Shown in pieces: positions 28,780 through 32,378 of a stretch of 61,690 nucleotides of DNA (position 1 is the stretch's first letter; each line of letters begins with the position of its first letter). Location of the stretch: contig JAGSHN010000003.1 in assembly GCA_029855935.1 (NCBI GenBank), positions 1 through 61,690 of the forward strand. The letters run 5' to 3'. The position numbers were made by a program, and so were the translations under genes. The notes below the pieces were generated by a model. The model was not told the origin of the DNA and did not search any database. It saw only the letters and a program-made list of their open reading frames with translations. The stretch comes from Candidatus Thorarchaeota archaeon (lineage in GTDB: Archaea > Asgardarchaeota > Thorarchaeia > Thorarchaeales > Thorarchaeaceae).

Positions 28780-30060
28780 TCACTGTCGATGCAGCAGCGG
28801 GGCTGCGATGAAGGTGAGGCCTCTCTTTGTGAGCTCTCTGGCAGTCCTGTTCAGTGCATCGTGCTTGTCGAGGTAGTTGCGCGTCAGGTACGGCATCAGG
28901 CCCTTCTCGATGATCTCCTCCTTCGGGAGGAAGTACTCAAGGATGTCACTTGGATGCTCGCGTTTTGCATCGACCTCCGGGACTCCACCCTCGTGCTTCG
29001 CACTGATGTTCTTCACGTGGTCTGCGACCTCCAGCAGTTCCTCCAGTCTGTCATACGGCTGGCGGACAATGTGCTTGAAGGTCTCAGTGATGTGATGCTC
29101 TATCCTTACAACGTCCTCGAAGCCGAAGTTCTCACGGATGTACGCCGCCATCTCTATAGTTTCATTGTTGACACTGTTGCTCAGGTTGAAGCCGATCAGC
29201 GGGCTCGTGCCGTCCGGCCGGCTGAACAGCTTTGCCGTCATCAGTGTCCACAGGCACGCGTACGGATTGTCATTGCCCATAAAGACGCTGATCTTGAACT
29301 CCATATCGACACCTAGCTTGTGGAGCATATAGCCGAGCAGCACAGTTCCCGGGTTGATGTTGAGCACCTGCTTGATCCCGTACTTGGTGTAGTAGTAGAG
29401 ATACTCGTCCAGCCAGCGCAGAGCGAACCTGTTCGGCTGGCCCACGCCGCCAAAGTATCCGGTGATGGTGTCGGGACCACCAAGATGAACATTGACGGGC
29501 AGTCCGTCAGGACCCGGGTATGTCCCCTTGCTGTCAAGGGTCTCCACGTAGGATGAACCAGTGATCTGCATTGCCGCAGCAAAGGCGGGCAGGTCACCGT
29601 CCTCCTCCTGCTCCTTCATCTTGCGGACTCGGATGAACCGTCCCGGCATCAGCTCCTCTCGTTCGAGTGCGACCTTTGCCTCCTCTATCACCCACGGAAA
29701 GTACTGACATGCGCTTATCTCAAGGGTGACGGCAAACGAATCATCGAAGGTCATTGAGTCGGCCCTGTCACCAAGCACCTTTCTCCTGTAGTCCTGAACC
29801 GTTATGAATGCACCCTCATCACGGCGCTCCTGTAGCCAGTGGAGGTCCTTGATATACGACGGACTCTTCTTCTCCACCAGCGCCATCAGGTTGTCCAGCC
29901 TGCGCGCCTCGGCGGCCTGTCGGTTGATCTCCTCCACACCGCCATACTTGTCCACTATCTCGAGCAGATCGTTCACCAGAGGATTGTCCTCCCGAAGGAG
30001 GAACTCGTTTATCTCCTCCAGTCGCTGAGGGTCTATCCTGAGCTTCTCTCGGTCTACCAT
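28780..30060 (-). CDS. Conserved-looking uncharacterised protein, possibly a TIM-barrel enzyme
   Basis: I do not recognise this family. The 426-residue protein starts at ATG 30060, after an AAGGAAGG-like site, although the frame is open to 30141. The first 75 residues are helical and charged. The rest alternates strands and helices, with candidate ligand-rich segments GGPDTITGYFGGVGQPNRF, VLNINPGTVLLGYML, NLSNSVNNETIEMAAYI and VVRIEHHITETFKHI, suggesting an enzyme of barrel type. No signal peptide or membrane helix is seen. It is alone between the rubrerythrin-like gene and the ECF component. Confidence 0.6.
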   Translation of the reverse strand: MVDREKLRIDPQRLEEINEFLLREDNPLVNDLLEIVDKYGGVEEINRQAAEARRLDNLMALVEKKSPSYIKDLHWLQERRDEGAFITVQDYRRKVLGDRADSMTFDDSFAVTLEISACQYFPWVIEEAKVALEREELMPGRFIRVRKMKEQEEDGDLPAFAAAMQITGSSYVETLDSKGTYPGPDGLPVNVHLGGPDTITGYFGGVGQPNRFALRWLDEYLYYYTKYGIKQVLNINPGTVLLGYMLHKLGVDMEFKISVFMGNDNPYACLWTLMTAKLFSRPDGTSPLIGFNLSNSVNNETIEMAAYIRENFGFEDVVRIEHHITETFKHIVRQPYDRLEELLEVADHVKNISAKHEGGVPEVDAKREHPSDILEYFLPKEEIIEKGLMPYLTRNYLDKHDALNRTARELTKRGLTFIAAPLLHRQ

Positions 30061-30257
30061 TGTCCAGCCTTCCTTGAACGAGTGCTTGAATATCTCAGTG
30101 CGTGCCCTCTCATACTGATAAAGGGTATGGCGTCCTGCCATTCGATATCTCGTCGGGTCTCTGGCTCACCACTCGGCTGACACATCTCCTGTTGACATGC
30201 CAGACTGCTGCACGGTCTACAACACCGTGCAGAGGCACGTGGCCGTCATACGGGCCG

Positions 30258-30824
30258 CTACCGCACCTCTATGTCCCCGCCAATCACTGGCAGGATAAGC
30301 CCGCGCAGCCGTGGTCCTATCAGTGCCGTGACGACTCCCCCGACAGTCACCTGTATCACGTTGATTGAGATGAGCTCTGCCAGTGCCGCCTCCGGTGTTA
30401 TCAGGAGGACTAGGGTCTCTCCGAGATAGTAGCCCAACAGCATCGCGATGGCGCCGAGGATGATTCCCACCACGTCCAATGCAGTGAGTTGGTCTACCCT
30501 CCTTGACCGCCACGAGAACAGGCCGACCATAAGACCCTCCGTCCCCTTGACCACCAGCGTGATGGGAGCGAAGAAGACGTAGCCTAGCCCCACATCGGCC
30601 ATCATCGAGCCCACGCCGCCCGCCACGAGTCCACCGACGGGGCCGAGGATCATCCCGCTTGTCATCACCAATATGTCCCCCACGTTCAGGTATCCGGTCG
30701 TGGTCGGGAATGGTATCACCAAGACCATAGTCGCTGCTGCAGTCAGTGCCGTCATCATGGCCACAGTGGCAAGGTACACAGGGTTCGTCGTCGTCCTTGT
30801 GGGTCGGTTCATCTCGATGTTCAT
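30258..30824 (-). CDS. ECF transporter substrate-binding (S) component
   Basis: This is a 188-residue membrane protein with five to six helices, of the QueT/HmpT/ThiT-type ECF S-component fold: LATVAMMTALTAAATMVLV, GYLNVGDILVMTSGMILGPVGG, MMADVGLGYVFFAPITLVVKGTEGLM and a C-terminal VGGVVTALIGPRL. S components bind vitamins or precursors and need separate energising A/T proteins, which are not in this window. It is divergent from the threonine-synthase-like/PadR gene, sharing a 66-nt promoter region with a palindrome. The substrate cannot be read from the sequence. Confidence 0.8.
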   Translation of the reverse strand: MNIEMNRPTRTTTNPVYLATVAMMTALTAAATMVLVIPFPTTTGYLNVGDILVMTSGMILGPVGGLVAGGVGSMMADVGLGYVFFAPITLVVKGTEGLMVGLFSWRSRRVDQLTALDVVGIILGAIAMLLGYYLGETLVLLITPEAALAELISINVIQVTVGGVVTALIGPRLRGLILPVIGGDIEVR

Positions 30825-30856: not shown

Positions 30857-30866
30857 AATATATAAG
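30857..30866 (+). promoter_or_regulatory. TATA box for the 30891 gene
   Basis: AATATATAAG is centred about 30 nt before ATG 30891, so the transcript of the fusion gene is probably leaderless. Confidence 0.5.
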
Positions 30867-30871
30867 CCTAA

Positions 30872-30885
30872 GCCTATATATAGGC
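30872..30885. promoter_or_regulatory. 14-bp palindrome in the divergent promoter region, candidate operator
   Basis: GCCTATATATAGGC is a perfect palindrome in the 66-nt region between the ECF S-component and the threonine-synthase-like/PadR gene. It overlaps the expected transcription start zone of the latter and may also act as the TATA box of the former. Two direct TAAGCCT copies lie just before it. Confidence 0.5.
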
Positions 30886-30890
30886 GGGCG

Positions 30891-32378
30891 ATGACGACCG
30901 ATGTGAGGGGCCTACTCTGCACGCAGTGTGGCAGACATGTCCCTGTGGAGTCTCGTGCCACTGGATGCCCGCGATGTGAGGGTGTTCTTCAGGTCGAGTA
31001 CGACATCGAGCGGCTCAGGGAGCGGGTCACACGTCACTCACTTGGCCGTGAAGAGCGTGGTGTCTGGCGGTTCCGGGACGTGCTACCTCTGGGGGCGCGT
31101 GCGCAACGCATCTCTCTAGGTGAGGGCGGTACGTACCTGCACCGATGTGACCGTCTGGCCACCAAGACAGGCGTGGGCAATCTCTTCCTGAAGGACGAGA
31201 CAATCAACCCCACGGGCTCCTTCATCGACCGTGGGATGGCGGTTGAGATCTCCGCAGTGAGGGACTGGGGCGTCCGTGAGGTACACTGCTGGTCTCTGGG
31301 GAACCTCGCTGTGTCCATGTCGGCGTATGCAGCACGTGCTGGTCTTCCTGCTGTGGTGACGATGTCTGAGAACGTCGCCTCTGACGTGGGGAAGTTCTAT
31401 CAGGTGCTGGCGTACGGTGCTCGTGTCACAAGGTCGGGGGAGTCATCAGATGCAGTGCTGGCGTACGGTGGTGGTGACGATCGTCACCATGTCGTGATGT
31501 CGACGAATCCCTTCTTTCTTGAGGGTGTGAAGACGACCGCCTATGAGGTGATGATGCAGCTGCAGTGGACTCCTCCCGACTGGGTCGTCGTGCCGATGGG
31601 CAGCGGAGGTCATATCACACAGGTCTGGAGGGCCGTGCTAGAGATGGAGCAGCTTGGGCTGCTCGACGACGGGCGCCCCCGTCTGATTGGCGTGCAGAAT
31701 ACCAGATGTGCCCCGATAGTAGAGGCCCTCCGCAATGGTCACGATGAGAGAATTGAGCCCTGCAGGGACCACTCATTCATCACACGCGACATCGGTGTCC
31801 GCAGTCCCCGCTGTGGTGTCTCAGCGCTCAGAGCGATACGCGAGTCCAATGGTACTGCCATAGCCGTGACAGACTCTCAGACGATCGACTCTGTCCGCAG
31901 TCTGGCACGTCTGGAGGGGGTCTTTGCAGAACCGTCGTCTGCAACGGTGATTGCTGCCGTTGGGCTGTTGGTTGATGATGGTGTGGTTGACCGTCAGGAC
32001 ATGGTTGTCTGTATGGTCACCGGGATGGGGCTGAAGGCACCGGAGATAACCCGCGACTTGGTGCGGGACGACACCAGACTGAGGACCCTTCTTCGCCGTG
32101 TTGAGGACTCCATCTCTCCGGCTGCGCTGGGTATGACGAAGCGGAGGATCCTAATACTTCTGGGGCAGGAACCATTGTACGGCTATGCCATCCGCAAGAG
32201 GCTTGAGTCGGAGTTCGGTGTCCGCATCTCTATCCCCAGTGTCTATCAACACCTCTCCGAGCTCGTGAGCCTTGGGCTGGTTGAGCGTGCAGGTATGACA
32301 CAGACCTACCAGGGCCGGGTGCGGAACTACTACATACTGACTGGACGGGGGCATGACCTACTGCTTGGCCTATCGTGA
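30891..32378 (+). CDS. Threonine-synthase-like protein lacking the PLP lysine, fused to a PadR winged helix
   Basis: Residues 1-410 are a threonine synthase-type fold-type II PLP protein with an N-terminal zinc ribbon (CTQCGR, CPRCE), the KDETINPTGSF motif, a SLGNLAVSMSAYAARAGL loop and the phosphate loop PMGSGGHITQ. The PLP-binding lysine that follows PTGSF is isoleucine here (codon ATC at 31224-31226, residue 112), so normal catalysis is not expected. Residues about 413-495 form a PadR-type winged helix (ILILLGQEPLYGYAIRKRLE, PSVYQHLSELVSLGLV, YYILTGRG). I read it as a ligand-sensing transcription factor; a palindrome upstream may be its site. Confidence 0.82.
   Translation: MTTDVRGLLCTQCGRHVPVESRATGCPRCEGVLQVEYDIERLRERVTRHSLGREERGVWRFRDVLPLGARAQRISLGEGGTYLHRCDRLATKTGVGNLFLKDETINPTGSFIDRGMAVEISAVRDWGVREVHCWSLGNLAVSMSAYAARAGLPAVVTMSENVASDVGKFYQVLAYGARVTRSGESSDAVLAYGGGDDRHHVVMSTNPFFLEGVKTTAYEVMMQLQWTPPDWVVVPMGSGGHITQVWRAVLEMEQLGLLDDGRPRLIGVQNTRCAPIVEALRNGHDERIEPCRDHSFITRDIGVRSPRCGVSALRAIRESNGTAIAVTDSQTIDSVRSLARLEGVFAEPSSATVIAAVGLLVDDGVVDRQDMVVCMVTGMGLKAPEITRDLVRDDTRLRTLLRRVEDSISPAALGMTKRRILILLGQEPLYGYAIRKRLESEFGVRISIPSVYQHLSELVSLGLVERAGMTQTYQGRVRNYYILTGRGHDLLLGLS

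Follow-up and report, generated by a model that had tools for sequence, protein, structure and literature searches.

Transcription factors of the MocR/PdxR type join a sensor derived from a PLP enzyme to a DNA-binding domain. They lie beside, and are often divergent from, pdxST or vitamin B6 transport genes, with a shared intergenic operator (PMC5320631). Apo-PdxR is an activator of pdxST and a repressor of its own gene, with PLP serving as an anti-activator (PMC5320631). MocR regulators are reported to be absent from Archaea (PMC5320631). Two archaeal regulators, ThiR and RbkR, combine a vitamin-pathway enzyme domain with an HTH domain and control vitamin genes; their enzyme folds and vitamins differ from those considered here. 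A third point of comparison is NF004170/PRK05638, a family annotated as an enzyme, whose PadR-like C terminus is part of the model. Here we describe a threonine synthase–PadR fusion of Asgard archaea, which we propose is a non-homologous archaeal analogue of MocR/PdxR, PLP sensing being inferred. No description of this fusion was found in the literature that we searched, which left out most subscription papers.

The window analysed, a 61,690-nucleotide stretch of contig JAGSHN010000003.1 from a Candidatus Thorarchaeota archaeon (assembly GCA_029855935.1), belongs to a source genome of 32 contigs and 2.97 Mb. The gene at positions 30891–32378 (plus strand) encodes, in a single frame, a 495-amino-acid protein made of a zinc ribbon, a lysine-less threonine synthase domain and a C-terminal PadR winged helix (Pfam PF00291 and PF03551), and 20 orthologues share this architecture. 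These 20 full-length fusions, drawn from 47 genomes of the Thorarchaeota family, were aligned with that of the window to give a set of 21 sequences, in which the zinc ribbon cysteines C10, C13, C26 and C29 (30918–30977, plus strand) are invariant. The PALP domain (PF00291, residues 74–378, E = 1.9e-60) is of fold type II and threonine synthase-like according to its Pfam and PDB matches, a similarity that NCBIfam also supports. The PadR domain (PF03551, residues 420–490; 32148–32360, plus strand) scores 48.6 bits against a cut-off of 27 (E = 8e-13), with a putative recognition helix around SVYQHLSEL; Y430-G-Y432 and Y452-Q-H454 are invariant in the 21-sequence alignment. A structure prediction from a two-sequence alignment reached a mean pLDDT of 44.6 and was set aside as evidence. 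A scan of genome contigs returned one locus, on a Thorarchaeota contig, apparently that of genome G003. Many of the counts given below were made with custom scripts, and the genome set includes incomplete assemblies, so single absences are weak evidence.

Codon 112 (ATC, Ile; 31224–31226, plus strand), in the motif NPTGSFIDRG, stands at the position of the Schiff-base lysine, and Ile112 aligns with the catalytic lysine in all four of the closest PDB threonine synthase chains. All 21 full-length Thorarchaeota family fusions have Ile or Leu at residue 112 and none has Lys (0/21), a conservation that rules out a sequencing error or an isolated mutation at this codon. The PLP pocket is otherwise recognizable. 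N138 (31302–31304, plus strand), which corresponds to the threonine synthase Asn making contact with PLP O3′, is invariant in the 21 sequences, as are G237, G239, G240 and T377; the GSGG segment (residues 237–240; 31599–31610, plus strand) is equivalent to the PLP-phosphate loop and aligns with GNAG of the PDB threonine synthases. In threonine synthase, the counterparts of N138, of the three glycines and of T377 hold the O3′, the phosphate and the pyridine nitrogen of PLP, respectively. The whole clade lacks the catalytic lysine and retains the PLP-pocket motifs. Judged by its active site, and from sequence alone, we infer that the fusion protein is not a working threonine synthase. Absence of the arginine that binds the substrate phosphate was also considered as evidence of inactivity and dropped, as canonical Thorarchaeota threonine synthases of the L002 type lack it too.

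The initial annotation of the locus had reported the zinc ribbon, the GSGG loop, the replacement of the PLP lysine in PTGSFIDRG and a PadR domain in the same frame, and all of these held, each where it had been placed. It had also asked for an alignment of homologues at position 112 and named a sequencing error in the ATC codon as a possible refutation; the alignment shows that homologues in the lineage lack the lysine and that some distant fusions (family f20, below) keep it, and the error is excluded.

The fusion is not a MocR, as both defining domains fail. The MocR/PdxR sensor is a fold type I aminotransferase and that of the fusion a fold type II threonine synthase; the winged helix of MocR/PdxR is N-terminal and of the GntR type, whereas the only DNA-binding domain found in the fusion is the C-terminal PF03551, and neither pair of parts is homologous. 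The fusion also differs in having no Schiff-base lysine. The genomic setting of MocR/PdxR is matched, with a link to pdxST or to a presumed B6 transport gene and a conserved intergenic site, although the B6 cargo of the transporter component is inferred.

Divergent from the fusion gene, at 30258–30824 (minus strand), is an ECF transporter S-component (PF07155, E = 2.7e-32; 112.5 bits, cut-off 26.7), which we propose to be a vitamin B6 uptake protein. The two prokaryotic B6 S-components known, PdxU and PdxU2/HmpT, both fall in PF07155 (PMC9997740), and mass spectrometry has identified pyridoxamine as a cargo of HmpT (PMC4860826). The best PDB match, and the only solved relative found, is HmpT/PdxU2 (4hzu, E = 1.7e-15). 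At the positions of HmpT E41, H84, Q87, Y120, N140 and Q143, S-components beside the fusion have D/E, K, E, Y, N and Q throughout the aligned set; four pocket positions (E/D41, Y120, N140 and Q143) are thus kept, whereas H84 is replaced by K and Q87 by E. The Asgard S-components probably share one conserved substrate, close to that of HmpT and perhaps not identical with it. Two EcfT-family proteins are encoded in the source genome, so the S-component could work. In all 20 orthologous loci the divergent S-component is the neighbour of the fusion. A caveat on adjacency as evidence is that the block holding the two genes is itself syntenic in many family genomes; at two loci (L045 and L056) the pair is kept although the other listed neighbours have been lost, and across the Asgard phylum the two genes adjoin in divergent, convergent and co-directional arrangements. 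The S-component itself is present in 41 of the 47 family genomes, many of which lack the fusion. In most related loci it is followed, in the same direction, by a protein about 69–83% identical to the 453-amino-acid protein at 28780–30141 (minus strand) of the window, for which no Pfam, NCBIfam or PDB family gave a match.

Between the two genes lies a 14-bp palindrome, GCCTATATATAGGC (30872–30885), a putative operator for which there are no binding data and which recurs, with 0–2 mismatches, in every family locus that carries the fusion. The palindrome and the divergent ECF S-component had likewise been noted in the initial annotation and were confirmed. Beside the palindrome is a nearly invariant element, ATATATAA (30858–30865), which we propose is a bidirectional TATA box; its spacing to the operator is fixed at 7 bp in the 21 sequences, and the DNA around the two blocks is hardly conserved (mean information 0.25 bit outside them). 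The 12-bp core of the palindrome occurs exactly once in the 2.97-Mb genome, and nearly all exact copies in family genomes sit at the fusion/S-component locus.

We compared these loci with 18 S-component loci that have no adjacent fusion, 17 from genomes without a detected fusion and the other a second copy in G005. The operator is absent from all 18, the best match having 3–5 mismatches, compared with 0–2 in every fusion-bearing locus. Most of the 18 nevertheless have a recognizable core promoter, CTCA[AG]nnTTATATG, and the minus-strand TATA form CTCAAnnTTATAT persists at many S-component promoters without the fusion. Because the palindrome is gone from these loci while the core promoter often remains, the operator belongs to the regulator and not to the basal promoter. 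The sequences themselves show that the fusion is constantly paired with an ECF S-component or pdxST and that the operator tracks the presence of the fusion. Given this comparative support, which is strong and includes no experiment, local regulation of the S-component by the fusion is very likely, as is the identity of the fusion protein as a local transcription factor derived from threonine synthase, DNA binding being inferred. The gene most often found next to the fusion-less S-component is desulfoferrodoxin-like.

A chance repeat or a plain TATA box was rejected as an account of the palindrome on the grounds of core uniqueness, the distribution of exact copies, the fixed spacing and the loss without the fusion. 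A wider regulon read from additional operator copies was also rejected, as only two other exact sites were found in family genomes, a number compatible with chance. One of them lies inside a P-type ATPase-like gene in G021; the other, an exact CCTATATATAGG on contig C7 of G014 (L130), is roughly 200–350 bp upstream of a gene for a trpB-like PLP enzyme, and may itself be there by chance.

Vitamin B6 is the likely subject of the regulator, B6 transport by the S-component being itself inferred. This reading rests on the PF07155 S-component, on patterns of PdxS absence and on pdxST as a substitute neighbour. PdxS (PLP synthase) was detected in none of the 47 family genomes and in 9 of 14 control genomes. 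Where the fusion locus was examined, PdxS occurs in 0 of 48 genomes in which the S-component adjoins the fusion and in 7 of 10 in which it does not (Fisher p = 4e-7, uncorrected for phylogeny; the counts are not phylogenetically independent). In the two lysine-less lineages without an S-component neighbour, pdxST adjoins the fusion instead, divergent from it in G224 (L090) and in line, directly downstream, in G048 (L095). Against the B6 reading, no PF08543 kinase (PdxK/ThiD family) scores above cut-off in the source genome, which leaves the route from imported B6 to PLP unexplained. ThiC and PdxS are likewise not found above cut-off there, and the source organism may need both an external thiamine precursor and B6.

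The overall explanation that we consider likely is a local regulator, derived from threonine synthase, that controls B6 uptake or synthesis. A dimer of the fusion protein would bind the palindrome CCTATATATAGG. Read on the minus strand, CTCAAnnTTATATAT, the ATATATAA block would serve the S-component gene as its TATA box, and the operator would be directly upstream of it; an operator abutting the promoter in this way could serve either to activate or to block uptake. The same block would also suit as the TATA box of the fusion gene; that would put the operator downstream of the TATA box and ahead of the probable transcription start, an arrangement predicted to give self-repression. The threonine synthase domain is predicted to bind PLP, or another B6 vitamer, non-covalently and so to change the DNA-bound state, such that B6 uptake (or pdxST synthesis) would be lowered when PLP is plentiful. 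Confidence differs among these parts. It is likely that PLP is the signal, that the fusion works as PdxR does, PLP-dependent control of transcription being inferred, and that PLP lowers rather than raises expression, a direction that is also inferred. That PLP, held non-covalently, is the direct ligand is the view towards which we lean, by a small margin and without binding data; a hydrophobic residue at the lysine position could possibly point to a different ligand. The suggestion in the initial annotation of a MocR-like, lysine-less regulator is thus supported, with the ligand and palindrome binding still inferred; the probable link to vitamin B6 and the finding that the palindrome tracks the regulator go beyond it.

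Of the alternatives, the one that survives best, although unlikely, is that the protein senses an amino acid or phospho-amino acid (threonine, O-phosphohomoserine or serine) inherited as a ligand from the ancestral enzyme, with only indirect control of a vitamin transporter. In its favour are the threonine synthase ancestry of the fusion and a lysine-free pocket that may hold an amino acid, alone or with PLP; in GabR, GABA acts jointly with PLP (PMC5320631). Against it, the neighbouring genes are B6 genes and not amino acid genes.

That the regulator and S-component serve not B6 but HMP, the precursor of thiamine, we consider very unlikely. In favour of this reading, the original name of the closest solved S-component, HmpT, refers to hydroxymethylpyrimidine, and ThiC is absent from the source genome and undetected in any Thorarchaeota family genome. 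However, among 26 genomes outside the Thorarchaeota with the fusion/S-component pair, ThiC is found in 20, which could make their own HMP, and PdxS in none; the substitute neighbour in two lineages is pdxST and no thiamine gene; the source genome lacks a PF08543 (ThiD-family) kinase; and the sensor domain has the fold of a PLP enzyme. There is similarly little to recommend the view that the fusion has no regulatory role here and that common descent or a plain TATA box alone explains why neighbour and palindrome are conserved. In many genomes the block around the locus is indeed broadly syntenic, and TATATATA is part of the palindrome. However, the pair survives loss of synteny and occurs in three orientations across the phylum, the palindrome vanishes without the fusion while the core promoter often stays, and, were the palindrome the TATA box for the fusion, transcription would start inside the open reading frame. 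All but excluded is the reading implied by the name of NF004170/PRK05638, in which the protein is an active threonine synthase and its DNA-binding domain an accessory: that family aligns over the whole protein, PadR part included, and lysine-bearing fusions exist in family f20, but the match (274.6 bits) is below the curated cut-off of 421, the Schiff-base lysine is missing throughout the clade and the source genome encodes two other full-length homologues that keep it (L002 and L003). Substituting I112K in silico raised the NF004170/PRK05638 score by 2.3 bits, an indirect view of the lysine in members of that family.

Returning to the B6 regulator that we favour, the fusion is common across 228 genomes of the Asgard phylum. 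In the fetched Asgard set, residue 112 has three states. The group that includes the window has Ile, Leu, Val, Thr or Asn, some lineages have Arg or Ser, and family f20 has Lys. Fusions split from canonical threonine synthases with a support of 0.967, and sequences with I, L, V, T or N at this position cluster together with a support of 0.72 (both FastTree). The union of threonine synthase with PadR is ancient, and Lys in the f20 fusions with Arg elsewhere implies that the fusion came before the loss of lysine, or that this loss occurred more than once. A close operator match (0–2 mismatches) is present in 7 of 12 lysine-less fusions outside the family; none was found for Lys, Arg or Ser fusions outside it. 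Most f20 fusions (L108–L122) keep both Lys and PadR and have the S-component downstream on the opposite strand, without a CCTATATATAGG-type operator; the regulatory link is less clear for these, which are beside the S-component but lack the operator.

A bolder reading is that these proteins form an undescribed class of Asgard B6 transcription factors, in which threonine synthase was joined to PadR and the lysine then discarded, leaving PLP to be sensed as a free ligand instead of by way of a Schiff base; the balance of evidence tips only modestly towards it. If true, this would be, within the literature searched, the first proposed B6 regulator in Archaea, and a case of convergence in which two unrelated PLP-enzyme folds, each in a different domain of life, became B6 switches. 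Asgard archaea, many of them without PdxS and so perhaps reliant on B6 from outside, would gain a proposed B6 uptake protein, and genes that are probably annotated as threonine synthase would receive a new label. Fusions with Lys, Arg and Ile or Leu offer a natural series for the transition from enzyme to sensor.

Four Arg112 fusions (L098, L102, L111 and L119) are divergent from genes whose products resemble, by eye, the replication proteins GINS and MCM, and are not beside the S-component; these loci may represent a separate functional branch. At three other loci (L042, L044 and L047), an acetyltransferase-like gene has been inserted ahead of the S-component, and the operator is found upstream of it. 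This gene, GNAT-like by eye, is the first of the divergent S-component unit; bacterial PdxR regulons are also reported to include RimI-family acetyltransferases (PMC5320631).
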